Positions 891 through 34,379 of a DNA stretch of 41,079 bases are shown here, in pieces (the stretch's first letter is position 1; the number at the start of each line of letters is the position of its first letter). The position numbers and the translations under genes are program-made. This stretch comes from a virus: positions 1 to 41,079 of IMG/VR virus record IMGVR_UViG_3300021959_000109; one strand, written 5' to 3'. Under the pieces are notes generated by a model, which saw only the letters and a list, made by a program, of their open reading frames with translations, was not told where the DNA came from and did no database searches.

Positions 891-2441
891 TTAATAATAT
901 CCACCGCTGCGTTGTCTCCAATACTGCGGTTCTTCCGGTTCATCAGTGGGTAACCGGATAAACCCACCTTGCCTAAAACGCATCAGAGCCATAACCGTCG
1001 AGTCCACGAGGTCATCATTACTCATAAACGGGAATCCTGCAATCTCTTCTACAACTTCTTCTGCCCACCGTGTCTGTGGCACCCATACGAGTTCGGACGC
1101 TATTATGTCCGCTACGGAGTTTAAACGCGCTGTTTTGTCCCCCGACCCCCTATGTGGGGTGTACTCCGATATCGGCAAGCCCATACGCCGCATCTCTTGA
1201 TATAAGGCCACGCCAGAGCTTTTCTTCTCCACGATGAACGAATCAGGCTCCCAATCCCTATACTCGTCCATAGCAAGCTCTTTAAGCTCTGGAAACTCCA
1301 TACGGCGCTTTATGCTGTTTAACAATATAATATTGTAGTTGTTTGTGTGCTCGTTCAGGAACACTCCCCACGTGGTGAGTGCTGTATAGTCTGCGCGGTT
1401 GTGCTTCTCGGCTGCTGCGTCGAGCGACATTATGATGTATTCACACGGAGGCGGGCTTTCCTCAGTCCACTCCTGCCACCACTCACGCTTAACAATAGCT
1501 GCTTCTTCAGCGGTGGGTTGTTGTTGGTACTGAGCGTTCCACTGGAATGTAGGCATCGACGCCTTAGTTCGTAACAGGGCGTCCAGATCAAAGAACTCAG
1601 GCCACAAGGGCTTCTGTACCTCTTTCTTCGTTTTTTTGCTCATAACGTCCAGTATGGCTGGGAACTCGACCACCTCATACTGATCTGAGCGTTCGTTCTG
1701 CGCCATATCCCGCACAACACGACCCGTCAGGTCGTCCATGTGCCAACGCGTCTGGATTATCGCAACCCGTCCACCGGGCATTAAACGTGTTCGCGCACCG
1801 AATGTGAACCACTCGTAGGCTTTTTCAAAGACTTCAAAGTTCCCGTTGATAACATCTTGTTCAGAGTGGGGATCATCAACCAAGAGGAGGTCAGCACCCC
1901 GCCCAGCAAGAGCAGACCCAATACCACACGCATAATATTCACCTCCTACATTGGTGTTCCATCGTCCCGCTGACTTACTATCCTGCGCTAATGATGTGGT
2001 AGGAAATATAGAGCGATACTGGTCTGTAGCGATCAAGTTACGCACTTTACGACCAAAATCCACCGCGAGGTCCGTGGTATGGGACACCATCATCACCTTT
2101 TTAGTGGGGTTTCGCCCCAAAAACCATGCAGGATAAAAGATCGAAACAAGCTGTGATTTACCATGTCTAGGGGGTATATTCACGCACACACGGTCCTTAT
2201 CGCCCCGCTCAATACCCATGAGCATATTAGCCAGTATGCGGTGGTGCTTACCAACTATAAAGTCAGGCATCATCAGCTTACAAAACTCTATCAAATCGTC
2301 ATGTGCAGACTTGTTTGCCGTCCGATTATGCAGCTCATCGACCATTTTATCAATCTCGGCCACCTCATCAACACTAAACGAGTCCAGATTAGCCAACATC
2401 AGCTCAATCTCTTCGTCCGTGAAGTCCAACGGCTTATTCAT
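891..2441 (-). CDS. terL: Terminase large subunit (packaging ATPase and nuclease)
   Basis: This is the motor that pumps DNA into the prohead and cuts the concatemer. At 516 residues it has the usual family length. The ATPase half shows a Walker A-like P-R-H-G-K-S-Q at residues 91-97 and Walker B L-L-L-V-D-D at 185-190. The C-terminal RNase H-like nuclease has acidic residues at D341 (I-I-M-S-L-D), E405 (F-I-V-E-K-K) and D477/D480 (D-D-L-V-D). Both halves look intact. The start overlaps the end of the upstream small-subunit gene by 8 bp, which suggests translational coupling, and the portal gene follows. All three would be transcribed leftward from the promoter near 3063-3090. No insertion or frameshift is visible. 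Confidence 0.95.
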   Translation of the reverse strand: MNKPLDFTDEEIELMLANLDSFSVDEVAEIDKMVDELHNRTANKSAHDDLIEFCKLMMPDFIVGKHHRILANMLMGIERGDKDRVCVNIPPRHGKSQLVSIFYPAWFLGRNPTKKVMMVSHTTDLAVDFGRKVRNLIATDQYRSIFPTTSLAQDSKSAGRWNTNVGGEYYACGIGSALAGRGADLLLVDDPHSEQDVINGNFEVFEKAYEWFTFGARTRLMPGGRVAIIQTRWHMDDLTGRVVRDMAQNERSDQYEVVEFPAILDVMSKKTKKEVQKPLWPEFFDLDALLRTKASMPTFQWNAQYQQQPTAEEAAIVKREWWQEWTEESPPPCEYIIMSLDAAAEKHNRADYTALTTWGVFLNEHTNNYNIILLNSIKRRMEFPELKELAMDEYRDWEPDSFIVEKKSSGVALYQEMRRMGLPISEYTPHRGSGDKTARLNSVADIIASELVWVPQTRWAEEVVEEIAGFPFMSNDDLVDSTVMALMRFRQGGFIRLPTDEPEEPQYWRQRSGGYY

Positions 2442-4209: not shown

Positions 4210-4646
4210 CGTAACATTACACGCACGCAGTTAGCAGCACTACTAACTCACCCCGCCTAATTTAAACCAGTTCCCGAAGTAGCTCTGAGGCAAACGTAAC
4301 ATTACAAACCCCGATTTTGCTAAGTCATTGAAAACAAAGTAATGTTTCAAATGTTACGTCAATGTTACGTTTTTAAACCCTTGTTTTTTAGGCTAAGTCT
4401 TTGATTTTATTATAATGTTTCTATTGTTACTAATGTTACGTTCAAATACACAAACAATATTTCGTCTTCGAGGAGTTCTCCTGTACGAGTTTTTTCTAAA
4501 CTACACAGACATCGGTTTCAAACCTTCCTCACCGCCAAAAGCGTAACTTTGTAACTTTCCTTTCATTTCAATAACCTACAAGCCGTTTTCGCGTAACTTT
4601 AGCGTAACTTTAGCGTAACTTTAGCCCACACCTCCCGTAACATTAG
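4210..4646. repeat. Iteron-like array of CGTAAC[A/T]TTA repeats
   Basis: CGTAACATTA-like units occur on the plus strand at 4210-4220, 4295-4305 and 4636-4646, and inverted (ATGTTACG) at 4351-4358, 4362-4369 and 4433-4440. The related GCGTAACTTT lies at 4541-4550, with GTAACTTT at 4551-4558. GCGTAACTTTA stands three times in exact head-to-tail tandem at 4591-4601, 4602-4612 and 4613-4623. Copies in both orientations in a gene-free, partly AT-rich segment suggest initiator or regulator binding. Confidence 0.75.
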
Positions 4647-6739: not shown

Positions 6740-7855
6740 ATGGAAAATGCAAACGCAACATATTCTTTGGACTTGGATCAAGCTGTAAATCTTATTGACG
6801 CAGTGGGTGCAGTACGTACTGTCATTGTCGAGGGTGGCATGGGCACGGGTAAAAGCTCAGGCATCAAGGCTAAGCTGAAAGTGAAACGCCCGCAGAATAC
6901 TCACATTGATTTTGACTGCACCAACAAAGACATTCAGGATCTGACAGCGCCACAGTTCAAGAAGAAGCTAGAGGAGCACATCTCTGACTATGTAGAGTTC
7001 GTGCCGAATGCAGAGTTGGGCGTGCACTTGGGTATCCCTGTGACTATTAACTTCGACGAGTTCAAGAAAGCGTCTGACCCCGTACGTAAAGGCGTACGCG
7101 CATTCATGTTGGAGCGTGAGATCTGTGGTGTACCTCTACCAGAGGGTAGCATCATCTACGGTACGTCTAACCTCAGTGAAGAAGGACTGGGTGACGTGCT
7201 GTTACCGCATCAGCGCAATGCGATTATCGTGGTGAGACTTAGTAAGTCTACTAACATCAAGTGGATCGAATGGGGTATCGCACAAGAGCCGCCCATGCAC
7301 TCATCTGTACTGGTGTACGCCAAGAACAATCCTCAACTTTTTGACTGCTTTACTCAGGTCAAGAACCCCGAGGACAACTTGGAGATCTATCACCCCAAAG
7401 ATCCATCGCGTCTGTCGTTTGTTACGCAGCGGTCGCTACACATTGCGTCCGACATACTGCACGCACGTGACAAGTATGGGTTGGATGACCACACCGTGAC
7501 TGCTGCACTTATTGGCTGTGTCGGTGCGTATGCTGGGCCGAACCTCATGGCAAGCGTGAAGCTGGGTGACAGACTGCCATCACTGGATGCCATCAAGCAA
7601 GATCCCATGGGCGCAGTCGTGCCTGACACTGCTGCAGCTACGTGCATGGTCGTGTTCCGTGCGCTCGCCTCTATCGAACGCGAGTGGGTTAACGAGTGGA
7701 TGACATACCTCATGCGTCTGGACACAGAGGCTCAGGGCATGTTCGTCAAAGGTGTCATAGCTAAAGACTACCCACGTCAATGGGTGGCTAATAACCCGAA
7801 GTTCCAACAATGGATGCTGGATAACAACTACGTCTTTTCAGCAGACCAAGCGTAA
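6740..7855 (+). CDS. MoxR-like AAA+ ATPase
   Basis: The 371-residue protein has a Walker A loop G-G-M-G-T-G-K-S-S (residues 32-40), a Walker B-like V-T-I-N-F-D-E-F (101-108) and a sensor-1 segment G-T-S-N (141-144), in the order of AAA+ ATPases. Such MoxR-type ATPases act as chaperones with VWA-domain partners to remodel or load cofactors into a target complex, and the partner gene follows 12 bp downstream. Together with the DUF3150-like gene this forms a conserved-looking three-gene module. The substrate in phages is unknown. A copy of the dispersed palindrome (7238-7255) lies inside the coding sequence and encodes L-S-K-S-T-N. The start follows the second 36-bp leader repeat. Confidence 0.88.
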   Translation: MENANATYSLDLDQAVNLIDAVGAVRTVIVEGGMGTGKSSGIKAKLKVKRPQNTHIDFDCTNKDIQDLTAPQFKKKLEEHISDYVEFVPNAELGVHLGIPVTINFDEFKKASDPVRKGVRAFMLEREICGVPLPEGSIIYGTSNLSEEGLGDVLLPHQRNAIIVVRLSKSTNIKWIEWGIAQEPPMHSSVLVYAKNNPQLFDCFTQVKNPEDNLEIYHPKDPSRLSFVTQRSLHIASDILHARDKYGLDDHTVTAALIGCVGAYAGPNLMASVKLGDRLPSLDAIKQDPMGAVVPDTAAATCMVVFRALASIEREWVNEWMTYLMRLDTEAQGMFVKGVIAKDYPRQWVANNPKFQQWMLDNNYVFSADQA

Positions 7856-7867
7856 GGAGAAGAACTA

Positions 7868-9058
7868 ATGCCTTTATGGTCAAATGAACTAACCGCAGAG
7901 CAGCGCCTGTCCAAAGCTCTCATTGCAATCATGGAAAGGGCACCCGCCATCGGCGGGGTTGCTATGGTGGGTAAACGTGTAGTCGACGAGGATACACCCA
8001 CCGCCTGCACTGATGGTCGTGACGAGTGGTATGGTCGGGCGTTTGTTGCGAAACAGAGTGACCCGCAGCTACGCTACTTGGTCATACACGAAGTCTTCCA
8101 CAAGATGTATCGACACCCGATAACGTGGCGTGACCTGTCCAAGAAGTGTCCGCAGATTGCGAACGAAGCATGTGACTATCATATCAATCTAAAGATCACA
8201 GATGAGTTTGGTAGTGGCGGGTTCGCTATCATGCCTGATGGTGGGCTGTATGACGTGCGGTTCCGTGGCATGAATGTGAAACAAATCTTTGATATCCTGT
8301 GGCAGGAGAACGGTGACCAGCCGCGCTCGAAGCAAGGTGGCAGTGGTGAAGGTGGTGATGGTGACATCGATTGGGAGAAAGCCAAGGAGCTAACCAAAGC
8401 CGAGGAAGCCGAGCTTGATCGTGAGATCGACGAAGCTATTCGCCAAGGTGACATCGTTGCAGGTAAGATGAAGGGTAACAAGAAGCTAGACGTGGATGAT
8501 CTGCTCAAGCCGAAAGTGAACTGGCGCGATCCTTTGCGTGAGTTCTGTGTGGATACATGCAGAGGTGCGAGCTACTCATCATATCGCAGACCTAATCGCC
8601 GTTACCTGCAGCAGGGTGTGTACATGCCAAGCGGTGTGACTGATATGGTGGGGGAACTGGTATTTGCTGCTGATACGTCCAGTTCGATTTTCGGTCGCCC
8701 GTTAGCAATGGTGCTAGCCGAGATGCAGAGTATTTGCACCATGGTCAATCCGTCACGTGTCCGCATACTGTATTGGGACACAGAGGTGTGTAAGGAAGAG
8801 ATCTACATGCCTGAAGACTATGACCAGCTTAGTAAGTCTACTAAGCCAAAGGGTGGCGGCGGCACTGACGTGCGCTGTGTACCTGCATACCTGCGTGCCA
8901 ATAACATCAACGCGCAGGCTGTCATTGTTCTGACTGACGGTGACTTGTGGGGTGGCTGGGGCGAGTGGACGTGGCCGCTGCTGTGGTGCATACTCGACAA
9001 CCCAAGCAAGATGCCGCCCGTTGGTAAGGTTATACACACTAACACAGGAGACATGTGA
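7868..9058 (+). CDS. Metallopeptidase-like plus VWA domain protein (DUF2201-like)
   Basis: The 396-residue protein has two parts. Residues 1-150 resemble a zincin domain: H-E-V-F-H (74-78) matches HExxH, and N-E-A-C-D-Y-H-I-N (99-107) fits the third-ligand region. After a Gly-rich, acidic linker (155-200), residues 262-380 form a VWA-like domain with an intact MIDAS: D-T-S-S-S (269-273), T333 in G-G-G-G-T-D, and D357 in L-T-D-G-D. This is the DUF2201 architecture as I recall it, usually encoded next to a MoxR ATPase, as here. Whether the zinc site is catalytic is unknown. TAAGGAG precedes the ATG. A palindrome copy (8828-8845) inside the VWA part encodes L-S-K-S-T-K. The next gene overlaps its stop codon (TGATG). 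Confidence 0.9.
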   Translation: MPLWSNELTAEQRLSKALIAIMERAPAIGGVAMVGKRVVDEDTPTACTDGRDEWYGRAFVAKQSDPQLRYLVIHEVFHKMYRHPITWRDLSKKCPQIANEACDYHINLKITDEFGSGGFAIMPDGGLYDVRFRGMNVKQIFDILWQENGDQPRSKQGGSGEGGDGDIDWEKAKELTKAEEAELDREIDEAIRQGDIVAGKMKGNKKLDVDDLLKPKVNWRDPLREFCVDTCRGASYSSYRRPNRRYLQQGVYMPSGVTDMVGELVFAADTSSSIFGRPLAMVLAEMQSICTMVNPSRVRILYWDTEVCKEEIYMPEDYDQLSKSTKPKGGGGTDVRCVPAYLRANNINAQAVIVLTDGDLWGGWGEWTWPLLWCILDNPSKMPPVGKVIHTNTGDM

Positions 9059-11476: not shown

Positions 11477-11787
11477 AGATACCGCACCGGAAAGAATACG
11501 AAGAGTTCTACCGCACGTGTTGGGAGAAACAGGTTAAGCAGGATAAAAAAGAAAACCCGCGGTTAGTCTATAACACTCGGTATATAAATAATTCTGCTCA
11601 CAGGAAGAATGGTTTCAAGGGCGGTAGGCCCAGAAAGGAGGAGAACAAATTAGGACTAACGAAGGATGCCGAAATGCTGAACAGGATGTTACAGCGCGGT
11701 ATGACAGTGACAGACGCCGCTCAGATAATGGGCATAAGTAGAAAATGGGCGTCAATGACAAAGAAAAAATATGGTTTGCCAAGATAG
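11473..11787 (+). CDS. HTH DNA-binding protein with AT-hook-like segment
   Basis: The 104-residue product has a very basic N-terminal half, an AT-hook-like G-G-R-P-R-K at residues 50-55, and a C-terminal helix-turn-helix around 68-100 (R-G-M-T-V-T-D-A-A-Q-I-M-G-I-S-R-K-W-A). It resembles the C-terminal HTH of Hin-type resolvases but lacks a catalytic domain. It is a good candidate for a phage transcription regulator and for binding the dispersed 18-bp palindromes, although nothing in the sequence ties it to those sites directly. It overlaps the upstream gene (ATGA) and is followed closely by the gene at 11798. Confidence 0.8.
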   Translation: MKIPHRKEYEEFYRTCWEKQVKQDKKENPRLVYNTRYINNSAHRKNGFKGGRPRKEENKLGLTKDAEMLNRMLQRGMTVTDAAQIMGISRKWASMTKKKYGLPR

Positions 11788-11797
11788 GAGAATGGCT

Positions 11798-12559
11798 ATG
11801 GTTGCGAAGAAAACAGCAGGGGCACCCCTTGAGATACATACTGTTAAGCAGGGACGTATCAAACTGCGTATGATCGGGCAGACACCGATGTACTTTAATA
11901 GTATGGGCGCGAAGGCGTGGCGGGATCTGTTAGTTGGCGCTGGTAAGAAGACAGCGGCAGAAAAGAAAGAGTTGAAGCATAACCCCGAGCAAGAGTTTCG
12001 GGAGAGTGTCTATACTAAAAAGACCGGAGACACACTACTGTGTTTCCCTGCAGCGGGGGTAAAAGGCGCGATGGCTACGGCTGCGCTGGAAACGGCTGGC
12101 ATTACTAAGACAAGTGTGCAGCGGTTAATCTTTCTACCCGAAAGCCATGTTCAGGTTTGGGGTAAGCCTTACTTGAAGATGGACATTGTTCGCTCGGCGG
12201 ACATGAACAAAACACCCGATGTTCGTAGTCGGGCGTACTTACCCAACTGGTGTGCAGAAGTGGACATAAAGTTTGTCACACCAACGCTCAGTGCCATGGC
12301 TATCTCGTCATTGCTAATGAACGCAGGGATAATCGTGGGGCTTGGTGACTTCAGGCAGGAGAAAGGTCGGGGGTCTTACGGTACGTTCTCTGTGACAGGT
12401 GCTGAAGACATGGGAGACCACCAAGCGCTCTGGGATGACATTACGCAAGAAGGGCGTGAGGTCCAAGAGATGGCGATGGAATACCCCGAATGCGCCGATG
12501 AGCAGACAGCAGAGTTGATGCAGTTTCTACAAGAAGAGCGGTTGCGTCGAGCAGCTTAA
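11798..12559 (+). CDS. Phage protein with RAMP/Cas7-like signatures, function unknown
   Basis: The protein has 253 residues. The ATG at 11798 is favoured because AGGAG (11786-11790) lies 7 bases upstream; the ATG at 11792 would be only one base from it. Two segments recall RAMP-superfamily proteins such as Cas7/Csm3: C-F-P-A-A-G-V-K-G-A-M (82-92), like the P-G-S-S-L-K-G-A segment, and G-L-G-D-F-R-Q-E-K-G-R-G-S-Y-G-T-F (181-197), like the Gly-rich loop. The N-terminus (I-K-L-R-M-I-G-Q-T-P-M) fits a first ferredoxin-like strand. No other cas genes are present. In a replication context it might bind single-stranded nucleic acid. The resemblance is by eye only and may be convergent. Confidence 0.7.
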   Translation: MVAKKTAGAPLEIHTVKQGRIKLRMIGQTPMYFNSMGAKAWRDLLVGAGKKTAAEKKELKHNPEQEFRESVYTKKTGDTLLCFPAAGVKGAMATAALETAGITKTSVQRLIFLPESHVQVWGKPYLKMDIVRSADMNKTPDVRSRAYLPNWCAEVDIKFVTPTLSAMAISSLLMNAGIIVGLGDFRQEKGRGSYGTFSVTGAEDMGDHQALWDDITQEGREVQEMAMEYPECADEQTAELMQFLQEERLRRAA

Positions 12560-12567
12560 ACGAAGAG

Positions 12568-12585
12568 GGGCGGTTAACGCCGCCC
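12568..12585 (+). other. GC-rich hairpin after the RAMP-like gene
   Basis: GGGCGG (12568-12573) pairs with CCGCCC (12580-12585) around TTAACG, nine bases after the stop codon. No T-tract follows, so it is at best a weak terminator or an mRNA end stabiliser. GGCGGTT within it resembles the core motif of the array that starts at 12600. Confidence 0.4.
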
Positions 12586-12599
12586 TAATTCACGGATAC

Positions 12600-13159
12600 G
12601 GCGGTTGAGGCGCGGTGAGTTGGGTTAAGGCACGAACGGGCGTGGCACGGCGGTCGCGGCACGGTTGGGTACGTTGAGTTATGGTAAGGCATGGTGAGGC
12701 AAGGCGGTCGGGGCGAGATGTGTTTCGGTTTTATTGGTTTTGGTATTGTATGTTAAGGCGGTCAAGGTGTGTTGTGCTCGGGTATGGCGAGCTACGGTGA
12801 GGCATGGCGGGTGAGGCGGTCGGGGCGGGGTGTAGCACGTTGAGTTGTGTTACGGCAAGTCGGGTTCAGGCGGTCGAGGCGTGTTACGTTGTGGAATGGT
12901 TGGGTGCGGTCCGGTTGGGCGGTCAGGGTATGGTAAGTTCTGGCGCGGCGAGCTTTGGTCGGGTGCGGCATGGCGAGGCGGTCTAGGTCCGGTTCGTCGC
13001 GGCGAGGCACGGTGTGGCGGGGCGGTCGTGGTGCGTTCCGATGTGGCGCGGTCCGGTGTGGCGGGGCGGTCGTGGTTCGTTTCGGTTTGGTCGGGTCGGG
13101 TGCGTTCAGGCGGTTGAGTTTGGGTGAGGTCCGGTGAGGTCAGTGATGGCATGGCGGTC
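12600..13159 (+). repeat. Compound pentamer array: GGCGGT(C/T) cores with (NNGGY)n spacing
   Basis: Twelve cores GGCGGTC or GGCGGTT start at 12600, 12649, 12703, 12757, 12815, 12869, 12918, 12977, 13021, 13065, 13109 and 13153. Spacings are 49, 54, 54, 58, 54, 49, 59, 44, 44, 44, 44. All but one equal 5n+4. Between cores the DNA reads as pentamers close to NNGGY (often ATGGT, AAGGC, GAGGC, ACGGT), 7 to 10 per unit, followed by two bases. The 58 spacing looks like a unit of 59 with one base lost. The plus strand is rich in G and T and poor in A. Open frames crossing it are by-products of stop-poor composition. Function is unknown. Confidence 0.9.
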
Positions 13160-13176
13160 AAGCTAATGAGAAGGTG

Positions 13177-13195
13177 GTGGGCTGTGGTGGCCCAC
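13177..13195 (+). other. Hairpin between the pentamer array and the next gene
   Basis: GTGGGC (13177-13182) pairs with GCCCAC (13190-13195) around a 7-base loop. It lies 18 bases after the last array core and 35 bases before the ATG at 13231. The sequence after it is A-rich, not T-rich. No promoter boxes of quality were seen here. Confidence 0.4.
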
Positions 13196-13230
13196 TACGC
13201 AAACATAAAAAAGCTATTGGAGAACTATAT

Positions 13231-13734
13231 ATGGCTAACTTTTCGAAGAAGACGAAGCAGCGTATCATTGATGATTACCTGCAGCAAACAGGCGCGAACA
13301 TGTTTGTGCCAGCGGATTTTGTTGATTGGCTAGCAGGCCAGCCCCAGCATGAGGCTTACCCTGCGTTCTATGAGATGGATGATGCAGAAGCAGCGCGACA
13401 GTTTCGTATTCAGATGGCACGTCAAATGGCGTCTGGACTACGTATCGTTGCTAAGGTGGAGGAGGTCGAGAGTTCTGTGGTCTCTATCAGAGTGGCAGAG
13501 TATCCTGCGTATATATCGCCCGTGTCCAAGCGGCGTGATGGTGGTGGGTATGAACCATTTGATCCCACGGACGAAGTGGCGCAAGCCGAATTACGTAGGC
13601 AAGCAGGTACGAGCCTCGCTGCGTGGTTGGAGCGGTTCCGTGGTTGTGCTGAACACGTGGGTGTAGACGTTACTCCATTGGAGGACATTGTGCATGTGTT
13701 GCGCGATGACAAAGACAAAGCAGTAGGAGAGTAG
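13231..13734 (+). CDS. Hypothetical phage protein, 167 residues
   Basis: The ATG at 13231 is preceded by TTGGAGA with an 8-base spacer and is preferred over 13174, which lies before the hairpin. The protein has a basic N-terminus (N-F-S-K-K-T-K-Q-R), a middle segment with beta-like alternation (R-I-V-A-K-V-E-E-V-E-S-S-V-V-S-I-R-V), a Gly-rich turn (R-R-D-G-G-G-Y-E-P-F-D-P) and a helical C-terminal third. No catalytic motif was identified and the family is not recognised. It starts the second part of the early block, directly after the pentamer array. Two bases separate its stop from the next GTG start. Confidence 0.75.
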   Translation: MANFSKKTKQRIIDDYLQQTGANMFVPADFVDWLAGQPQHEAYPAFYEMDDAEAARQFRIQMARQMASGLRIVAKVEEVESSVVSIRVAEYPAYISPVSKRRDGGGYEPFDPTDEVAQAELRRQAGTSLAAWLERFRGCAEHVGVDVTPLEDIVHVLRDDKDKAVGE

Positions 13735-24020: not shown

Positions 24021-24048
24021 CCCCCTACTATATGTAGGGGGTTTTTTT
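24021..24048 (+). terminator. Rho-independent terminator of the rightward operon
   Basis: CCCCCTAC (24021-24028) pairs perfectly with GTAGGGGG (24034-24041) around TATAT, followed by seven T (24042-24048). It works in the plus direction only. Its T-tract overlaps the stop codon (24047-24049) of the leftward giant gene, a very compact junction. Confidence 0.93.
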
Positions 24049-27000
24049 ATTGGATCTGAGTATCGTACTCTTTCAGGCTAGCCCGCATGTACGGAGTATA
24101 GGTAATACCGCCCGTCATATCCCCCGTAGTACGCTGGAAAGACTTGCGGGACTTAGCCACAGTGCTGTTTCTACCTGCAGTCGTGATGACAGATTTGCGT
24201 GCAGTTTTGGGCAAGCGTTTATTAAACTCACGGATTTGCTTCATAGCATCACGCATTCCGTCAATATCACCCTCACGCCGTGCGATATTTAGTTTGCGTA
24301 GCAGGCGCTGGCGTTTAGAATTTATAGCGTTCTGTTTACGGCGTTCGTTGTTGTTAATCTTACGGATTTCCGCCAAAGGCACATCCTCTGTCTGCGGCGT
24401 GAACCCTAATGCTTGAGCTATTAGATTAGCAGAATTAAGATCACCTACAATGGGGTCACCCCGACGTGTCTGTATACCTTCTTTTTCGTACCGTTCTGCT
24501 TTAATAAAGTTACGCACCGCTACAGGCATCATATTCTCTATCCCACGACGATACTCACCCTGCATAATGTCGTCGCGTATTGCTCTGCTTGTAGATAGGT
24601 ACACCCCGAGCGCTGGACCGCCGAGTTGTTCTGCCAACGTCCACATAGGGTCTTGGTCTTTTTCAATAAACGGTTTGCGGTAAAGCAGGCTGTTCATAGA
24701 TATACGGCTAGCAATATCCACACCAAGCAATTCGTTTGCGAACCCGTCGTAGTAACCTCCACCGACAGATTTTCGTAACATTGATTCAAAGTCATCTTCA
24801 AACTCGTCAGAGAACATGTTGTATATCGCGCCGAATAGACCCATCAACGGCATACCACCAATGCCAGAAGCTAGCCCTGTTGTTATCAAGAACATACCGA
24901 ACTGCTTGCGTGCAATGGCACGTTCTTTTGGATCAGCGTTGGCAACTGAGTCTGAAACCATGCGGCCCATCATGTAGTATTTGCTGATGGCGAAGCGCTT
25001 AAACAAGAACAGAATGTTCCCAATGTTACTTTGCGCAAAGGTTGGACGCCCTGCGGAGGCTGCACTACCTAACACGAACTCAGTCTCACCAATCGCAAAG
25101 TCAACCGCTTCTTGGTACTCTTCTTCTTTTAAACTGTTTAGATCTCTACCCTTAGCTAACTGACTAAGCTTTAGATCATACGCAGCGGCCATCGTGGCTT
25201 CACGATTGATACGTTCTGAGTGGTGGAACATAAAGCTGGTGTATTTGTTTATGGTTTCCAGCGGAGCATCACGCCCGATCTCTAACTGTTCCTGTGTCAT
25301 AGACTGGTTGAACTGCCCCTTAGCTAGCCCTCCCGCTACGATATACCTCATGTACGCCAAACCCTTTGGCGCATCTTTGGAGTCAAAGTCATAGTTTGCA
25401 ATCGACTTGCCCTGCATCCCCATCTGCACGACTTCTTTAACGGGTTTGCCGTCTGGGCCTGTAACTTCGATAGTTCTCTCTTTGGGTGCACCCAAAAGCA
25501 ACTTCATAGATCTGCCATATGCTGCGTTGGTTGCGCCGAAACCAAAGCGCCCGCTAAGTATAGGCATAGCGCTCATACCCACATCGAAGAACGTGATAGC
25601 TGCGGAAGAGAAGTTAGCCCCCATTGTCCAGTTAAACCCAAGCGCCGTAGCCCTCTGTGACCAACGTGCCACATTAGGGCTTTGTGCAAACTCAGCAATA
25701 CCTTTTAGTTTTTGTGCTATGACTTTTGTTTCTGGGTTTTTCTCGTACCCACCGTCCTCAAGCTGTTTCAGGAAGCCTTGTATCTCTGCACCTGATTTTA
25801 ACTGCACGATCTGGCGGCTGAAGTCTCGACCCTTGGATTTAATCATTTCGGCAAAGTCAAACCGTTGTCCTGATATACCTGTAGTTGGGGTTATGTCTCC
25901 GATAAACCCACGCACGCCTCGACCTTCCGCAGTGGTCTTACGTTTGCGAAAGCCCTGCATGAAAGAACGTTCTGGCATCGCGTCAAGCGACAGTTCCAGT
26001 ATATCGTTGGTTACTTTGGAGTCAGTTATACCATTCTTTTTCAACGTCTCAAGGATGTTGGATACAAAAGAAGCACTGGGGTAGTTCTTCATACCACGTG
26101 GTGCAGCGGCGAGCGATAGTATGGGCGCTTCCTTTAAGGTAGCGTCAGTGCTCTTTGATTTCTTGTTGTATGCGGTCACCTCTGCCTGTGCACGTTTAGC
26201 TTGCGACTGACTGGTAAAATACTCCACAAAATATTCTACTTTACCCGACATGGGGTCCACCGCGTTATACTCTAGTCTCCACTCACCTCTACGGTTTAAT
26301 GGGAAGTACGGGCGAATGAGGCCACCCTGTGTCTGCAGTAACTCGTTTATTTTATCCAACGCACTTCTACGTTGCTCTTCACCCACAGACACTGCATTTA
26401 TACGAGCCTCTAGGGCAGCGGGGATCTCGTCATATATCTCTTGGAAGAAGTTGCGTGTGGTGCGGTACAGATCTCTCCCTGCGTCTCCAACTTCCTTGCT
26501 CTCGTACATGGCGTTCAGCTTGTCCCAATCCGCCATTTTATCGGGATCTGGATTACCAGCCGCTCGCGCTTTGGTGCGATTCGCAGGTATGTTTGCGTTC
26601 AAGGATTTTATCTTAGCGTCACGCTCGTCTTTGGTTTTGTACTCTTGGAATGTAGTTTTGCCTGTCTCTGTGTTCGCGTAGGACAACCTGTATGAATCAT
26701 AAGTGCTCCGTGGCACGGAAGGGTCTACTTGTAAGAATGTGCTGGTAGAGGTTAGGTAGTCTAGTCGTTCGTACCCAGCATTGTTTTCTTTACGGTATTT
26801 TTGAATACGGCCCGTAAGAGAATCGATCCGCTCTAACCTATTGCGAAGTTCACCAGTCTGTTTCAAGATTAAATCATGTAGGTCTTTTGCAAATGGTATT
26901 TTGCTAGACGCAATGTCGGTAAGAATACGAGAATCTAAGAAGCTCGACACAATGTTAAGCAGTTTGTTGCCCACACTAGATTTTGTATCGTTTGCGTAGT

Positions 27001-30000
27001 CTTGTATTTTTTGTATTGTAGGGGGAGTGCCGCTTGCCTTGTTGTCGAAGATGCTTTTAATTAGCGCCTCGCTACCTTCAGGAGTAGAGGCCAACATATT
27101 GTAAGTCGGGCCGTTACGGTATTTGGGTGCAGGGGCCATGATGTTATCGAACAAGGCATCAACGCGGTCTGTTACTGTTTTTTCCCGTGGGTAGCCTAGT
27201 AGCCTGCGCCACAAGGTGCCCAAGATGTCCGCAAGCTTATCGTACGCGGTTCTAAATTTAACGTCTTTTATCTGCAGTGTAGACAACACAGACCGGAACT
27301 CAGGGTTGCTTAGCGCCTCTGAGAGGAACTCGTCCACAGATGTTGTGCCGTACATTCCGCCAATCTGCTCGCGGACTGCCTCGTATAAACGAGTGAGGCT
27401 CTTCGTTGTCCCTGCGTTTTTGTTAGCCAGTGAAGCCGACGCTAACGCGTGCCCCATCTCGTGCAGGAGTACGTGGTTGTTTAAGCCTGCTTTGCTGTCC
27501 AAAGATATTGTGTTTGTTTGGGGGTCAAACGTACCTGCAGCAGGCATATCCGCCGAACCACGTAAGTCTTTTACGACCTTTACTTTAGTAGTGCCAACGG
27601 CTGTAGCCATTTTCTTGGCTAGTGCGCGGACCGCGGGGCTACCCGCCATGTTATTCAGGGCGTCTTCTAATTTATCCGCACGAACAGCCTTTTTGACCGA
27701 AGCCGAAAGGGGTCTAGCCAGAGCGACCACATCGTTCCTTGGTAGATCAAACGCGGCATACATACCAGCATACGGATCTTGCGCTTGCAGATCCCTAATG
27801 TCTTTTGCCCCACGTTTGATGTCCACGTTAGTTTCAAAAGCTTCGCGTAACGCTAAGACTTCCGCGTCGGACATTGCGTCCAGATCTAACTCCTGCTCTT
27901 TTGCGTATGCTTCAAACTTACGGTCAACTACAACCTGCGCTTTAGATGTAGTAGCCCTTTCACGAGCGACATCTACGTCTGACTTCCCTTTAGCTGTAAC
28001 CTCTGCGGGGGCTGCAGTAGCTTCGTCTGCCACAGCGTCACGTTCTGCAGCTTTGGCAGCATCTTTTATCTGCTTGTTCAGGGCTTTTGCCTCATCAGAC
28101 TCTACTTCTTTAGCCTTTGCCGCCACCCGTGTCGCAACGCCCTGTTTGTCTAACGCGGTGCCTTTGGACATATTATTTATGCCCTGTTTGATGTAGCTGA
28201 CAGCCTCTGCGCCCATGTTGGCCTGCACCCAACGTTGAGCGGCCTCGCCCATACCGACAGTGTTTACGTCCGCATAGAACTTGTACTCCGCGTCTGACGC
28301 ATAGGCAGGCTCTTGCTCGACTTTCCCTTCAAGCGTTTTAAAGTTTACTACACGGCTGGGCTTTTGTTTATTTTTTGATGCAATGGCTGCGCCGATAGTT
28401 TCGAGTGCATCAGATGGGCGACGATACCGTTTGAAGAACGCTTGCGCGGCACGGGCATCAGTGTCTTTCTTGCCGCCTTTTGATAGCTTGCGATCCAGTA
28501 GCTGTGCGACTGCCTCTCTGTCGACGGGCGTAGTACGGTCTACATCCGCGCCCAAGGCTACATCTACAACTTCTTCTTGTTTAGTATCTTTGTTGTAGCG
28601 CTTACCACGGATCGTTCGTACATCACCCCCCTGCGTGTCTGCGCCAGCCTCTTCTTTAAGATAAGCAAGCTCGGGGTCAACTGCCATGCGCTGAGCAAAT
28701 GCAGCATCTAGTTTATCTTGTGCCACACTGCTTTGATACTCGGGGCTAGTTTCGGAGGCAACTTCTGCTTCAGGTTCTTTTCCTACAACGGGCGGTATAC
28801 CCGCAGCTATTGGTCCTTTACGCGCACGGGCTAAGAACACATCGGTCAGTATTGCCGCCTTCTTACGGTTTTCGGGGTTTTTAATTTTACCTAGCCGTTC
28901 CTGCAACAGGGTAACAACTTCTGGGTCTCCCGCATCTTTGTTGAGCAGGTCTTTGTATAACTTAGTTCTAGGCCCAATTTTAAGATCTCGTAGGACTTCC
29001 TTTGTCACTTTACTAGCTGCAGGTGTACCTTCACGGGCTGGACCCATTTTATTTGCAGGGGCACCGAACAGTTTTGTTAGCCTCTCCTTTGCGGGAGAAG
29101 GCGGACCCTGCATCTCAGGCGGTCCTTGGCGAGGTAGGGGCGGACCCTGCATCTCAGGCGGGCCTTGACGCGCAGGCATACGTGGCCCTTGCATTTCAGG
29201 TGGACCTTGTACGGGTAACGGTGGCCCCTGACGTTCAGGTAGTTGTGGGCCTTGGCGCTGTGGGATCGGCCCTATACGCTCAGGGAGCGGGCCTTGTCTT
29301 TGTGGAATTGGGCCTTGGCGTTCAGGGAGCGGCCCCTGACGTTGAGGTACTGGACCTATCAGCGCAGGGAGCGGGCCTTGTTTTTGTGGGATTGGACCTT
29401 GACGTGGTGGCACTGGACCTATCAGCGCAGGGAGCGGGCCTTGTCTTTGTGGGATTGGACCTTGACGTGGTAGAGTGGGTGTAGCCTCTTGTACTTCCGG
29501 TGTAGGTGTCCCTGTATCTTCTTGAGTTGGGTCCGCACTGGGACCACGTGGTCCTCTACGTCCTACGAAGGCATCCATAAGAAGCTGGATAGTAGCACCT
29601 GCGCCACCACCGTATGCGGCGGGTTCGGCTAACCCTGCAAACAGTTCGCGGTCTGGGTTGTACCCACGCTCGGCTAGGTTTTGAACAAATTCGGTTGCAA
29701 CTTCTTGTGCGGCTTCTACACCGCCTGCTCCCGCTGCGCTCTTCATGCGGTTTTTTAAGCCAGTTACTGCCTCTTCCCCAACATCCCCAATGAGTTTGCC
29801 AAGATAAGGACGGGCAAAGCGAGCGATAGGCAGAGCTTCTAACGCACCGAATGGAGCAGCTTGACGGATAGCGCGGTTACGTTCTTCTTCAGTAGCCCCC
29901 GCTGCACGAGCGCGTTCGCTCGCTTCGCCTGCCTGTGCGCCTATACCCAATGCTGCACCAGCACCAATACCTGCAGCAGTCACTGTAGGGGCAGACACGG

Positions 30001-30517
30001 GTAGGGTGGCAATACCGACTAACGGCGCAGCGAACCCAGCAATAGAACCAAAGGTCTGGCCGATTTTATATGAGATGTCGTCTTGTCCACCACCCTTGGG
30101 TTTTAACGCATCGGCAGTGGCCTTGATGGAATCTCGTGCACGTAGCTCTTTTTCTTCTTCAAGTAGAGTGGCTAAACCCAGCGCCGCTGACTCACCTGTA
30201 CTTATAAACCCCGTACCAAACCCTTTACGTAGGTTCTCAAACGTGCTCGGTTCTTCCTCGGGTACAGGCACCGGAGCTTGCGCCTCGGCTAACATCTGTT
30301 CATATATACGCTGTTGTTCCTGCCGTGCAGGAGATGCAGGTTCGGTTTCTGTGGGTTCTTCTACGGGGGGCTTCGCTTCTTTTTTGGGTAGTTTGCTGGA
30401 TAATTCCATACCCTTACCCTGCCGCAAGAGTTGCAGTAACTCATTTTGGGTAGCTTCAGGGGCAGCTTCTACGTAGAACTCTGTCCCGTTAGTTAGCGTA
30501 ACCGAATGTATAGCCAT
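24047..30517 (-). CDS. Giant polyvalent-type virion protein, likely ejected internal protein
   Basis: The 2156-residue protein starts with a short beta segment (M-A-I-H-S-V-T-L-T-N-G-T-E-F) and a Gly/Ala-rich hydrophobic part (about 135-300) that could span or insert into membrane. Residues 351-475 are heptapeptide repeats of RQGPLPx type. A zincin motif H-E-M-G-H (1019-1023) with a downstream A-S-A-S-L follows. The C-terminal third resembles the large polyvalent-protein-associated domain LPD38 as I recall it (M-P-L-M-G-L-F-G-A, then F-A-N-E-L-L-G-V-D). Such proteins are stored in the virion and injected with the DNA. The tight spacing with the 766-residue gene (no gap) and leftward direction place it in the virion operon. 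Confidence 0.85.
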   Translation of the reverse strand: MAIHSVTLTNGTEFYVEAAPEATQNELLQLLRQGKGMELSSKLPKKEAKPPVEEPTETEPASPARQEQQRIYEQMLAEAQAPVPVPEEEPSTFENLRKGFGTGFISTGESAALGLATLLEEEKELRARDSIKATADALKPKGGGQDDISYKIGQTFGSIAGFAAPLVGIATLPVSAPTVTAAGIGAGAALGIGAQAGEASERARAAGATEEERNRAIRQAAPFGALEALPIARFARPYLGKLIGDVGEEAVTGLKNRMKSAAGAGGVEAAQEVATEFVQNLAERGYNPDRELFAGLAEPAAYGGGAGATIQLLMDAFVGRRGPRGPSADPTQEDTGTPTPEVQEATPTLPRQGPIPQRQGPLPALIGPVPPRQGPIPQKQGPLPALIGPVPQRQGPLPERQGPIPQRQGPLPERIGPIPQRQGPQLPERQGPPLPVQGPPEMQGPRMPARQGPPEMQGPPLPRQGPPEMQGPPSPAKERLTKLFGAPANKMGPAREGTPAASKVTKEVLRDLKIGPRTKLYKDLLNKDAGDPEVVTLLQERLGKIKNPENRKKAAILTDVFLARARKGPIAAGIPPVVGKEPEAEVASETSPEYQSSVAQDKLDAAFAQRMAVDPELAYLKEEAGADTQGGDVRTIRGKRYNKDTKQEEVVDVALGADVDRTTPVDREAVAQLLDRKLSKGGKKDTDARAAQAFFKRYRRPSDALETIGAAIASKNKQKPSRVVNFKTLEGKVEQEPAYASDAEYKFYADVNTVGMGEAAQRWVQANMGAEAVSYIKQGINNMSKGTALDKQGVATRVAAKAKEVESDEAKALNKQIKDAAKAAERDAVADEATAAPAEVTAKGKSDVDVARERATTSKAQVVVDRKFEAYAKEQELDLDAMSDAEVLALREAFETNVDIKRGAKDIRDLQAQDPYAGMYAAFDLPRNDVVALARPLSASVKKAVRADKLEDALNNMAGSPAVRALAKKMATAVGTTKVKVVKDLRGSADMPAAGTFDPQTNTISLDSKAGLNNHVLLHEMGHALASASLANKNAGTTKSLTRLYEAVREQIGGMYGTTSVDEFLSEALSNPEFRSVLSTLQIKDVKFRTAYDKLADILGTLWRRLLGYPREKTVTDRVDALFDNIMAPAPKYRNGPTYNMLASTPEGSEALIKSIFDNKASGTPPTIQKIQDYANDTKSSVGNKLLNIVSSFLDSRILTDIASSKIPFAKDLHDLILKQTGELRNRLERIDSLTGRIQKYRKENNAGYERLDYLTSTSTFLQVDPSVPRSTYDSYRLSYANTETGKTTFQEYKTKDERDAKIKSLNANIPANRTKARAAGNPDPDKMADWDKLNAMYESKEVGDAGRDLYRTTRNFFQEIYDEIPAALEARINAVSVGEEQRRSALDKINELLQTQGGLIRPYFPLNRRGEWRLEYNAVDPMSGKVEYFVEYFTSQSQAKRAQAEVTAYNKKSKSTDATLKEAPILSLAAAPRGMKNYPSASFVSNILETLKKNGITDSKVTNDILELSLDAMPERSFMQGFRKRKTTAEGRGVRGFIGDITPTTGISGQRFDFAEMIKSKGRDFSRQIVQLKSGAEIQGFLKQLEDGGYEKNPETKVIAQKLKGIAEFAQSPNVARWSQRATALGFNWTMGANFSSAAITFFDVGMSAMPILSGRFGFGATNAAYGRSMKLLLGAPKERTIEVTGPDGKPVKEVVQMGMQGKSIANYDFDSKDAPKGLAYMRYIVAGGLAKGQFNQSMTQEQLEIGRDAPLETINKYTSFMFHHSERINREATMAAAYDLKLSQLAKGRDLNSLKEEEYQEAVDFAIGETEFVLGSAASAGRPTFAQSNIGNILFLFKRFAISKYYMMGRMVSDSVANADPKERAIARKQFGMFLITTGLASGIGGMPLMGLFGAIYNMFSDEFEDDFESMLRKSVGGGYYDGFANELLGVDIASRISMNSLLYRKPFIEKDQDPMWTLAEQLGGPALGVYLSTSRAIRDDIMQGEYRRGIENMMPVAVRNFIKAERYEKEGIQTRRGDPIVGDLNSANLIAQALGFTPQTEDVPLAEIRKINNNERRKQNAINSKRQRLLRKLNIARREGDIDGMRDAMKQIREFNKRLPKTARKSVITTAGRNSTVAKSRKSFQRTTGDMTGGITYTPYMRASLKEYDTQIQ
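29090..29467 (-). repeat. Region coding for about 18 heptapeptide R-Q-G-P-[LIV]-P-x repeats
   Basis: Within the giant gene, residues 351 to about 475 consist of heptapeptides close to R-Q-G-P-L-P-E, with variants L-I-G-P-V-P and, toward the C-terminal end, P-P-E-M-Q-G-P. The DNA is repetitive too, for example CTTGTCTTTGTGG-type copies at 29293 and 29441. Such Pro/Gly/Gln-rich repeats usually form extended, flexible linkers, and copy number may vary between relatives. Confidence 0.9.
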
Positions 30518-32818
30518 TTATTTGCTCACTACTTTAGAACTCGCAATGCCCGCACCACCTAACGGATCACCCGCACCTCCTCCAAGAGCGGCAGTGCGAG
30601 ACTTAACTTGTTCACCTAAATCTGCGCTCTTCTCAGAATAGTAGACGATAGCGGAATTACCGTCCATCACCTCACCGTCTATGGTAACTTTGTAATTTTC
30701 CATAAACGCTGAGCCTGCAAGCTGAGCTTGGTCAAACAGGCTGGGGTCTGCTAACGCAGCCTTGGTTGCATTTATACGTTGGTCAAATCCAGCTATCTGC
30801 TCTGGGTCTTCAACAGTTGCCTTAGATTTTATCAGTTCTTCCAACTCAGTAAGCAACGGGTTACGTAGCTCGTCCTCTTTCTTTTCTATCTCTGCATCGC
30901 GCAGAGAGATAAGGTTGTTTGCCGCCTCCAAGGCCGCTGTCTGCTGCCCTGCGAGTATATCTATATTAGTTTTCGCTTGGTTAAACGTTTGATTATCGCT
31001 TAAACGAGCTTCTTGCGCGGCGGACGTTGCCGCATTGGCCTCCTGAACTGCGATTGTAGCCGCTCTATATTCTGCTGTGTCTGCCCGTTCCGCAGCTTTT
31101 TGGTCCATCTCTGCTTGTTTCAGTATGGCTTGTAGCTGTTGATCTTCTACACGGTTTGCTGCGGCAGTGGCGGCAGCTTGTGTTGCACGATCCTCGGCCA
31201 GTAAACTAAACCCAACGTTTATAGCCGCCTGCTGTAGGCTAGAATCCAACGCTAGTGCCTCTTTGTCGAGGTTGATCTGGTCTATAAGCTGTTGTCTTGT
31301 AGCTCTTTTCTGGCGATTGCGTTCCGCACGTACAGAAGAAGATACTCCTGCGCCTAGAGCACCAAGGCTTGTTTTACCTGCAGCGCCCTCAAAAAACGCG
31401 GCCCAGCGGTCTCGCTCCATTTCTTCGGGGCTGTAGTTTTTATCGTCCAAATCTTTCAAACGTTGAGTTAGCTCTGCGTACTTCTCTTGGTATTTGTCTG
31501 CACCAAGCAGTTTCCGTGCTTCTGCAGTGTAGCTTTCCAGAGAGCCAAGGCCACCTGTACCTGTACCTTTAGACCTGCCACCACTTACTTTGCTAACATC
31601 TCCGTCTGCTGAAGTAATATCCACAGTGTTTGCATTGACTACCTCGTCTAGCTTCGGCTTTATAGCTCCTGAACCAATACCTCCAGCTAGAACGTCCGTG
31701 TCAGGCATTGCGAGATTAGAGATCCCCGCTTTTACTTTAGTAGTGCCAACGGCTATATCCGAAGGTATTTGTGCGGTGCCCTCAGAAGGTCTTTGGTTAT
31801 CATCTTCGGTAGGTAGTATTGTAGGCTTCGTATCTAAGGGCAATGCGGATGTAGGTCTTTGTGATAACGAGGGTAACCCCTGTAGTTGTTTTTCCTGTGG
31901 AGTAGTACCTGACTCAAAGCCTAAATTAGGTGTTCTGCCTTGCTCTATTGCAAACTGAGATGGGCTTGCAATGTAATCTTGAAAAGAATCTTTAGCAGAG
32001 CCAACTGCTTTTACGGTTTTCTGACCTAACTCTGTAGGTAAAGAAAGCAAGGAATCGGCAGCGCCGCCCAAACCTTCTGCCACTTTTAATGGGAACTGAA
32101 GTGCGGCCTCTCCTTTAGTCATAGCAGGATTTAATCCAAAAGGACCAGTATCGCTCTGTGGCTGTGGTTCTGTAACCGGACCTAACTCTTGTAGCATTCT
32201 TTTAGCTGTATTCGCCTCTTGAGGCATACTCTCTAAAGTCGTGATAAACCGATCAGCCCGAGCACCGAACTTCTGTCGTGCTGCAGCCTTCTGTGTGGGG
32301 GTAAGTTTGACTAGCTTGCCTTCTTGAAACGCAACAATGCCGCCCCCTGCCATCTTCGTTGGGCCTTGAGCCATTCTAGCAGCGGCAAGCCCCTGTGTAG
32401 GTTGTGGCCTTGGTTGTGGGCGTACGCCTCCTGCGAGTGCGCCGAGACCTGCGGGACGTGCAGGTGGCAGACCTTTGGATGCACGCTGCACATTCTTTTG
32501 CGCGTCCGTATTCTTCTTATCCATAACGCCTTTGACGTTACCTTTTACCTCGTCCTGCGTCATGGACATGACGCTTGCTTCAAGCTGCTCAGCAATACTA
32601 CGGGGGTCAGTATCCATCTTAGCCTGCATATCACGCATAGCGGCTTGTTTTTCCCGCTCTAACTTTTGCATAGCTAGCACTTCGACTAGCGGCTTTTTCT
32701 GCCCCCCTTGCATGGGAGTGGGTATACCCTGAGCTTGAGGGTTTGGCATGCCGCCTTGTGGATTAGGACCACGAGATTGAGGAAGTTGCGCTATGCCGCC
32801 GCGAGGTGCCAAACCCAT
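30518..32818 (-). CDS. Virion protein with Pro/Gln-rich start and coiled-coil body
   Basis: The 766-residue product starts with a Gly/Pro/Gln-rich stretch (1-45). It contains M-A-G-G-G-I-V-A-F-Q-E-G near residues 156-167, a pattern I recognise in structural proteins of marine podophages. From about residue 420 to 700 it is rich in Ala, Glu, Gln and Lys with long helices (A-A-I-N-V-G-F-S-L-L-A-E-D-R-A-T-Q-A-A) that would form a coiled coil. It is probably an internal or tail protein near the giant protein. The genes abut: one base after its stop comes the giant gene, and two bases separate its ATG from the upstream gene. Confidence 0.78.
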   Translation of the reverse strand: MGLAPRGGIAQLPQSRGPNPQGGMPNPQAQGIPTPMQGGQKKPLVEVLAMQKLEREKQAAMRDMQAKMDTDPRSIAEQLEASVMSMTQDEVKGNVKGVMDKKNTDAQKNVQRASKGLPPARPAGLGALAGGVRPQPRPQPTQGLAAARMAQGPTKMAGGGIVAFQEGKLVKLTPTQKAAARQKFGARADRFITTLESMPQEANTAKRMLQELGPVTEPQPQSDTGPFGLNPAMTKGEAALQFPLKVAEGLGGAADSLLSLPTELGQKTVKAVGSAKDSFQDYIASPSQFAIEQGRTPNLGFESGTTPQEKQLQGLPSLSQRPTSALPLDTKPTILPTEDDNQRPSEGTAQIPSDIAVGTTKVKAGISNLAMPDTDVLAGGIGSGAIKPKLDEVVNANTVDITSADGDVSKVSGGRSKGTGTGGLGSLESYTAEARKLLGADKYQEKYAELTQRLKDLDDKNYSPEEMERDRWAAFFEGAAGKTSLGALGAGVSSSVRAERNRQKRATRQQLIDQINLDKEALALDSSLQQAAINVGFSLLAEDRATQAAATAAANRVEDQQLQAILKQAEMDQKAAERADTAEYRAATIAVQEANAATSAAQEARLSDNQTFNQAKTNIDILAGQQTAALEAANNLISLRDAEIEKKEDELRNPLLTELEELIKSKATVEDPEQIAGFDQRINATKAALADPSLFDQAQLAGSAFMENYKVTIDGEVMDGNSAIVYYSEKSADLGEQVKSRTAALGGGAGDPLGGAGIASSKVVSK

Positions 32819-32820
32819 AT

Positions 32821-33660
32821 TTATGCCCCATCTTTCTTATCTTCTTTACCGTACATAAGGTTGTACAGCGCTTGTAGTCCGCCAGCCCCACCAAGGATCT
32901 CTGACAACATACTAGGTTCAGCGTAGCTGTAAGACTGCGCCCCAATCGGCAACCCCTGCAGGAGTGATTGCATGTACTGTACTTGCTTGTATGGGAAGTC
33001 ACGTTCTTCCTCAAACTGCAATCTATCTGCGGTGATACCTTCAGATTCAATGGCACGCTGCTCTGCACCCGCTGCGGCTATGTCACCAATGAGGTTGCGA
33101 GTGTACTGATTGGCCGCGGTCTGAGCCTCCATCTCGCGCCCTTGCTCGGTATTGAACTGGCCCATAGCTTTGTCAAACGCGTCTGAGTAACCTTGACCTG
33201 TTATGCTAGATAAGTTTTGAGCCATGTTACGAGCGGCTTCCGCATCGAACAATGCCTGAGCCGACCCACCGTACGCCCCTGCAAACTTATTAGCATTCTG
33301 TGCAGCCGTAATGCCTGCTTGGCGGCGAACCTCATCTAGCTGTGGCTGCAGCCCTGCCATAAGGTACGGGTTCATGTATTGTTGTGCAGTATCCGCGGTA
33401 AACGTTTGTGGGGTAAATACCCCCATTTCGTCTGTAGGGATGTCCATACCTTCGAACGCGCCGAACGACACATCCTGCAGTTCAGATGTACCTGCTGTAA
33501 GTGGACCGCCATACCCTTGATAATCTTGACTACCTAGCGCTGCACCCTTGCCGAGCATATCGGTAACGTAGTCACCTGCCCAAGTAGATAGGGACGACTC
33601 TCTACCCGTTTCTGCGCCCGCCATCGGGTCAACGTAAGTTGAAATGTTTTCTTCTGCCAT
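32821..33660 (-). CDS. Virion structural protein, probable DNA-ejection type
   Basis: The 279-residue protein is rich in Ala, Gln and Glu. Its segment Q-A-G-I-T-A-A-Q-N-A-N-K-F-A-G-A-Y-G-G-S (about 117-136) is typical of structural proteins next to ejection proteins in marine podophages, as I recall. The middle is a long helix with N-T-E-Q-G-R-E-M-E-A-Q. The C-terminus is Gly-rich (I-L-G-G-A-G-G-L) and ends basic. Function as an internal core or ejection protein is inferred from context and composition. Confidence 0.75.
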   Translation of the reverse strand: MAEENISTYVDPMAGAETGRESSLSTWAGDYVTDMLGKGAALGSQDYQGYGGPLTAGTSELQDVSFGAFEGMDIPTDEMGVFTPQTFTADTAQQYMNPYLMAGLQPQLDEVRRQAGITAAQNANKFAGAYGGSAQALFDAEAARNMAQNLSSITGQGYSDAFDKAMGQFNTEQGREMEAQTAANQYTRNLIGDIAAAGAEQRAIESEGITADRLQFEEERDFPYKQVQYMQSLLQGLPIGAQSYSYAEPSMLSEILGGAGGLQALYNLMYGKEDKKDGA

Positions 33661-33668
33661 GGGTTACC

Positions 33669-34379
33669 TCACGCGGGTATGAACTTTTTAGGGTCTATTT
33701 CTTTACCCTGTTTATCGTTTCCAGTACGCGCTTTGCGTACCCGAGCCATCATGCCTTCTAAAACTTTCGCGCCTGCGTCAGAGTTGCCGTTGCCGAGGTG
33801 GCTTACAACGTCTGCAGGGATCACAAACTCCCCATCGCTAAGACGGGCTTCTTGTGTACCTTCAATAGTGGCGGGCACTTCATCGGCCATACCATCGGTC
33901 TTGCCGTCAAGATACTTACCTTTTTTCAGTGTGGCAATACCCCCTGCAGCCATTTCTTCTACAGGCATCGGTATACCCACAGCAGGGCGTTTGCGTTCTT
34001 GGCGTGCAGGGTTGGTTAAATTTAGTGCAGCCAGACCTTCTGCTTGCTCCGTTGCTGCGAGCTTTGCCGCCTCTTCACCTCCCGGTGAAACGTACTGAGT
34101 GTCAGTAAAATAACGCTGTCCGCTACTACCTGCGCGTCTATTGGGGTCGTAGGACTGAGGGACCATCTGACGTTCTACAGCGTAATCAGGTATTTTGCCT
34201 TGATAGCCTACCTTTTTTGACTGGCTATCGGCCAAACCTGTAGCTTTTAACAAGGCACTCCCGCCGAGGAGACCCGCCATACGTGTAGCAGGGTCGCCAT
34301 CTTGACTAAGAAAATCAATGTCCGGTAAATCTACAGCGCCACCAGTTACGCTTTTTATCGTATCGGTAAACCAACTCAT
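33669..34379 (-). CDS. Small virion protein with SDGEFVIPADVV motif
   Basis: The 236-residue product contains E-E-M-A-A-G-G-I-A-T-L near residues 141-151 and A-R-L-S-D-G-E-F-V-I-P-A-D-V-V-S near 178-193, followed by G-N-G-N-S-D-A-G-A-K. This SDGEFVIPA pattern is common in tail-associated phage proteins and may be a processing or assembly signal. The N-terminus is hydrophilic and the C-terminus basic. It overlaps the giant repeat-protein gene by 4 bp (ATGA), so the two products are probably made together. Confidence 0.8.
   Translation of the reverse strand: MSWFTDTIKSVTGGAVDLPDIDFLSQDGDPATRMAGLLGGSALLKATGLADSQSKKVGYQGKIPDYAVERQMVPQSYDPNRRAGSSGQRYFTDTQYVSPGGEEAAKLAATEQAEGLAALNLTNPARQERKRPAVGIPMPVEEMAAGGIATLKKGKYLDGKTDGMADEVPATIEGTQEARLSDGEFVIPADVVSHLGNGNSDAGAKVLEGMMARVRKARTGNDKQGKEIDPKKFIPA

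Follow-up and report, generated by a model that had tools for sequence, protein, structure and literature searches.

The window analysed here is the whole of IMG/VR virus record IMGVR_UViG_3300021959_000109, a stretch of 41,079 nt. A cassette lies on its plus strand, consisting of a gene for a putative 262-aa guide-binding protein (11771-12559; phrog_4652, of unknown function), an array of G-rich pentamers (12600-13159), and a gene for a helical protein of 167 aa (13231-13734). We refer to the first gene as vipr and to the last as the partner gene. Between vipr and the array lies a hairpin, GGGGCGGTTAACGCCGCCC (12567-12585, plus strand), with an RNA fold z of -4.3, and a similar hairpin with compensated changes occurs in the relative L018. 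It possibly marks the end of the vipr mRNA or the boundary of the array. A second plus-strand hairpin 3' of the array (13174-13198) is present in some relatives only, and L015 and L047 lack it. An Rfam search of the region gave no match, and its DNA showed no similarity to GenBank phages.

Other features were noted elsewhere in the window. An eleven-base tandem repeat, TTTAGCGTAAC, is present in 3.5 copies at 4587-4625, and a phage AAA ATPase gene followed by one for a VWA-like (DUF2201) protein occupies 6740-9058. Long genes on the minus strand (2156, 766, 279, 236 and 1993 aa) form a block over 24047-40840; three of them were tested and had no PHROG match. The first, a 2156-codon open frame (24047-30517), contains tandem repeats of 18-63 bp, all multiples of 3, at 29099-29471.

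The array comprises 11 units bounded by 12 cores, GGCGGT(C/T), which start at 12600, 12649, 12703, 12757, 12815, 12869, 12918, 12977, 13021, 13065, 13109 and 13153. The successive intervals are 49, 54, 54, 58, 54, 49, 59, 44, 44, 44 and 44 nt. The preliminary description had given the twelve cores, their spacings and the four final intervals of 44 exactly as they stand in the sequence, and was right that the plus strand is rich in G and T. It had also proposed a unit length of 5n+4, which held for 10 of the 11 window units (binomial p = 9e-7) and, among the 398 distinct units of 20-80 nt read in related phages, for 342. The 5-nt periodicity was scored by lag, since the phase shifts at every core. 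Lag 5 gave 49 GG-to-GG coincidences in the array, compared with 21.2 +/- 4.1 in 2000 dinucleotide shuffles (maximum 34), and the autocorrelation suggested in that description thus revealed a phase preference. The 58-nt unit (12757-12814) also obeys the rule, because it contains a second 4-base insert, GGGT, in addition to GGTC (58 = 10x5 + 2x4). Its 3' end reads ...ATGGC-GGGT-GA-GGCGGTC. The rule can therefore be stated more sharply: the array is a chain of NNGKY pentamers in which a tetramer, GGTY, is inserted after NNGGC every 8-11 pentamers, each unit being (NNGKY)n + GGTY. A terminal core, GGCGGTC (13153-13159), closes the array, and a final core was found in relatives too. An extra core at 12569 sits inside the upstream hairpin and outside the ladder. 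The RNA folds of the units were unremarkable (z about 0 to +0.6).

The vipr gene has hundreds of relatives in IMG/VR, 80 of which were fetched for reading of their arrays. A search for the pattern in phage and metagenome data had been proposed, and a phased array was indeed found at the same place in nearly all of the 80, always immediately 3' of vipr. In total, 420 distinct units were read in 95 arrays, with 4-18 cores in each. The pentamer consensus was N-N-G(95%)-K-Y, with G or T at position 4, a pyrimidine at position 5, where G was almost absent, and nearly random NN letters. A G-quadruplex is unlikely to be the constraint, given that 28% of pentamers have T at position 4 whereas the phase and position 3 stay fixed. 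At the DNA polymerase-anchored loci with enough sequence, vipr, the array and the partner gene occurred together in 34 of 34 loci and were all absent in the other 20 of 20, with no mixed case. The partner gene is thus an obligate companion of the cassette in the loci compared.

Substitutions between nearly identical units were most frequent at the pyrimidine of position 5 (9.2%), followed by position 4 (5.4%), NN (3.8%) and the G of position 3 (1.7%); the difference between NN and position 5 was significant (Fisher p=1.3e-5). When unrelated units were compared, NN was the most diverse part. Units were also shuffled between phages, and divergent phages had guides in common whose NN letters were identical although their scaffold letters differed. 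The string TC TG CT AA TC TG AA, for example, occurred in 15 arrays, where six versions of the full sequence carried it. This pattern indicates that the information of the array resides in the NN letters.

A profile built from 28 relatives of the vipr product matched PDB 36pp, 'SUSP1 Vipr protein', with E=5e-4, making it the closest solved relative. In hhalign, the similarity to SUSP1 Vipr covered the C-terminal G-loop region (probability 93%, E=2.7e-7), and a G-rich loop, GIGDFRQEKGRG, is conserved in the family. The AF2 model of the protein was weak (pLDDT 65), and its best Foldseek matches in the PDB were mostly CRISPR RAMP proteins (Csm and Cmr subunits, Cascade, type VII). Taken together, the profile and the model indicate that the protein adopts a RAMP/Cas7-like fold with a G-loop and is kin to the known Vipr. 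It was not recognised by Pfam, NCBIfam or PADLOC. The partner protein showed no similarity to SUSP1 vap1 or to any named family, and its fold had no structural match; it is a candidate accessory (vap-like) protein. Genes annotated 'hypothetical protein' in the Gordonia phages UmaThurman, Pipp, Ecliptus and ODay are 25-27% identical to Vipr. Among GTDB genome contigs, vipr occurred only in L163 and L164, 3-kb contigs binned into sediment MAGs. These are probably phage contigs, so the bins are uninformative on the host.

VIPR (Viral Interference Programmable Repeat) systems have been described as a phage RAMP protein with vrRNAs of YNNGG repeats (PMC13142463, bioRxiv 2026, April-June). The NN dinucleotides of these RNAs recognise double-stranded DNA with one base skipped, usually the codon wobble, the system acts against competing phages, and it can be reprogrammed through the NN letters (PMC13142463). 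We consider, at a probability of about 0.93, that the array is the guide-RNA bank of a phage-encoded VIPR system of a marine phage, aimed at rival phages or mobile elements. The element is of a known, very recently described kind, and the window version is a tail-less, GGTY-joined array. The preliminary description was aware of no published element that follows such a rule, but the vrRNAs share its YNNGG/GGY-NN grammar (PMC13142463). The same match favours one of its suggestions, a non-coding RNA, expression being assumed from the published system. TRAP-like rings, RecT-like filaments, Rho sites and G-quadruplexes were dropped as candidates once the Vipr relationship emerged.

We searched IMG/VR for predicted targets using seeds of 8 NN (16 letters) with a 1-nt skip. 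A convincing target was found for only two of the ten regular window guides. The guide at 12703-12756 (NN = GG GA GT TC TT TG TT AT AT AA) matched the seed in 37 viral contigs, and in 10 of them the match extended to 20/20 letters, including both flanking dinucleotides, which are 4 letters outside the scan pattern (0.14 contigs expected). All 10 matches were antisense to FIIKQNDTSP, encoded by the first codons of an open frame about 110-120 codons long, which Pfam identified as BppU_N (baseplate) in the one example tested. The ten contigs are not ten independent events, because they represent about three protein lineages. With up to 2 mismatches allowed, this guide matched none of 149 genomes from the family to which the L164 MAG belongs.

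The predicted target of the guide at 13109-13152 (NN = GA TG GA CC GA CA AT AT) lies in other phages, at the EWEPDQMI motif of the terminase large subunit. Its seed matched 99 viral contigs. In 75 of 80 fetched contigs the site fell within an open frame 100 or more codons long, almost always translated there as (Y)WEWEPDQMI, and in 71 of 80 the contig encoded a TerL homologous to that of the window phage (46-50% identity in the longest alignments). The homologous codons of the phage's own terminase, DWEPDSFI (1233-1256, minus strand), mismatch the guide at 3 of 16 letters, which we read as apparent self-avoidance. A window-type Vipr was found in 0 of 27 of the target contigs tested. Taken alone, this guide could be a lucky match, because it offers only 16 letters against an abundant gene.

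For the remaining regular guides the search was less productive. Exact 18-letter scans gave no match for all the letters of 12600-12648 (GA GC GA GG AA AC CG GT AC) or for the inner letters of 12918-12976 (AG AT AA CT GC GA TT CG GC AT GA). No target was found for 12649-12702 (GC AC TG AC GA AT AA AT GA AA), 12815-12868 (GG GG GT AC GA GT AC AA GG CA), 12869-12917 (GA GT AC GT AT TG GC CC TG), 12977-13020 (TA CC TC GC GA AC GT GG) or 13065-13108 (GT TC TC TT CG CG GC CA). The NN of 13021-13064 (GT GC CC GT GC CC GT GG) has a period of 3, and this guide, with its repeated GT GC CC, is retained in many relatives. Its match to a VAPVAP/ATGATG repeat gene was weak and of low complexity (E=0.06), and it could aim at a VAPVAP or GAT-repeat (collagen-like) gene. 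The matches of the window guides stop at the cores.

Guides of related phages gave further matches. One matched the tyrosine integrase motif FHDLRHEA and another the serine recombinase motif HIGLKGTM, with Pfam agreeing for the examples tested. The matches to tyrosine integrases reached 22/22 letters and fell in three in-frame registers. The serine recombinase was matched in two registers, as an unrelated L022/L023 guide covers the motif four codons further on with one mismatch. The first codon was spelled in alternative ways by different guides, with CT or CG for Arg and AA or AG for Leu. When 300 guides were compared with the target regions that had been collected, 16 reached E<0.01 at skip 1, compared with 1, 0 and 1 at skips 0, 2 and 3 and with 0 for shuffled guides at skip 1; since the target loci had been picked by 16-letter seeds, the test is independent only for the letters outside the seed. 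The serine-recombinase pattern occurred in 13 of 198 genomes of one bacterial family and its reverse in 0. Any codon-like pattern is expected to cluster its matches in one gene family. Within the related phages' own genomes, target matches were at chance level at skips 0-2, and skip 3 gave three scattered matches with 0-1 mismatch. The strength of the target test lies in the letters outside the scan pattern, the multiple registers and the NN conservation, and these sequence matches indicate that the NN letters recognise targets through a 1-nt skip. In the relative L245, the guide GA GA GG CT GA CC CC AC AA matches GAGGAGGGACTCGAACCCCCGACACA with one mismatch. This sequence resembles the complement of a tRNA T-arm and 3' end, and the guide might target a tRNA/att site.

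These results also bear on a reading in which the RNA is a RAMP-bound scaffold or decoy without a guide role and the target matches arise by chance from abundant motifs. Most window guides are without a target found, and integrases and terminase are common genes, as that reading would have it. However, chance does not readily explain 20/20 and 22/22 matches that include letters outside the scan pattern, several in-frame registers on the same motif, the NN conservation or the specificity for skip 1, and published VIPR was reprogrammed by its NN letters (PMC13142463). We regard the scaffold or decoy as improbable. Still less probable is a G-rich R-loop or a replication or recombination signal, like a switch region or a transcription-primed origin, in which the phased G-rich non-template strand would favour R-loops. 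There is a strong skew of G over C at 12-14 kb, and the genes around the array include those for DNA polymerase, exonuclease and helicase. Nevertheless, such a signal does not predict the fixed 5-nt phase, the G-free position 5, the conserved NN strings or the 1-nt-skip matches, and phages with the same polymerase locus lack the array and vipr alike. The recombination or replication signal and the protein-binding ladder on DNA that had been suggested earlier are not needed. A selfish minisatellite grown by slippage and unit duplication, also suggested earlier, has a negligible probability: some neighbouring units are alike (13010-13114) and units are shuffled between phages, but slippage is not the source of the pattern because neighbouring pentamers are identical no more often than chance predicts (27 of 2058; 1.7% expected), and the substitution pattern, with its preserved scaffold and NN letters random between units but conserved between related ones, already refutes it.

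The guide-bank reading thus rests on features computed here, namely array grammar, conservation, co-occurrence with vipr, the RAMP relationship, NN conservation and the 1-nt-skip target matches, and its mechanism can be outlined by analogy with the published system (PMC13142463). The array would be transcribed rightward, and the transcript would be cut or delimited at the GGCGGT(C/T) cores. Each inter-core stretch would then serve as one guide, with 7-12 NN dinucleotides in a fixed GKY scaffold. Vipr subunits may coat it, one pentamer per subunit, forming an RNP. The NN letters would pair with the target DNA; because one target base is skipped after each NN pair, the skipped base would be the codon wobble position. 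The RNP would finally bind and silence a gene of the rival phage. The predicted aims are conserved coding motifs, those of the terminase and of the baseplate (BppU_N) gene start for the window phage, and of tyrosine and serine integrases for its relatives.

The cassette independently confirms, in uncultured marine phages, a non-contiguous RNA guide code first described in 2026. Large multi-guide arrays exist in nature, natural targets are supplied by the terminase, baseplate, and tyrosine and serine integrase genes, and both apparent self-avoidance and guide sharing between phages were seen. The multi-register matches on one integrase motif make guide acquisition and target escape directly testable.

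Compared with class 1 CRISPR-Cas, in which Cas7 filaments form on the crRNA, the proposed system is alike in lining up RAMP subunits along a guide RNA in which a base is left unpaired at regular intervals, and in arraying different guides. However, it lacks identical repeats and contiguous spacers. We rejected a CRISPR-Cas array as such, in that only the 7-nt core recurs and the 'spacers' retain the GKY scaffold. No other Cas proteins were found among the scanned window proteins.

The likeness to VIPR type II, known from Escherichia phage SUSP1 and a Pseudomonas fulva prophage (PMC13142463), is much closer. In both, a RAMP protein of the same family lies beside G-rich intergenic arrays of GGY/NN pentamers with hypervariable NN, the 1-nt skip falls at the codon wobble (judged here by sequence matches), and the systems are phage-borne with targets in competing phages and prophages. 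Several differences were also observed. The cassette described here has a single tail-less array of 4-18 cores joined by GGCGGT(C/T), with 8-11 NN per window guide between cores, whereas SUSP1-type vrRNAs have 9-16 repeats each. Position 4 is often T, Vipr has 262 aa rather than 195, the partner gene is different, and the motifs identified as targets belong to terminase, baseplate and integrase genes. The units have no 3' tail or pseudoknot of their own, and RNA folding revealed no structured tail like that of SUSP1 between the window units. The window array was therefore not filed as type II, although the invariable structured 3' tail is a feature of the SUSP1 clade only (PMC13142463). Neighbouring window units have one core in common and are shifted by -1 relative to the pentamer phase. 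This recalls the 'staggered arrays with overlapping vrRNAs' of PMC13142463 (fig. S18), which, going by the name only, are possibly the same architecture. Set against the seven published types as far as that source was available to us, we tentatively suggest, as the less favoured option, that the cassette represents a further, distinct VIPR architecture: a compact tail-less multi-guide array in which GGTY after NNGGC marks the guide boundaries, accompanied by a new partner protein, with guide sets that pass from phage to phage and follow amino-acid motifs of terminase, baseplate and integrase genes, the wobble being skipped and separate guides serving alternative Leu or Arg codon boxes.
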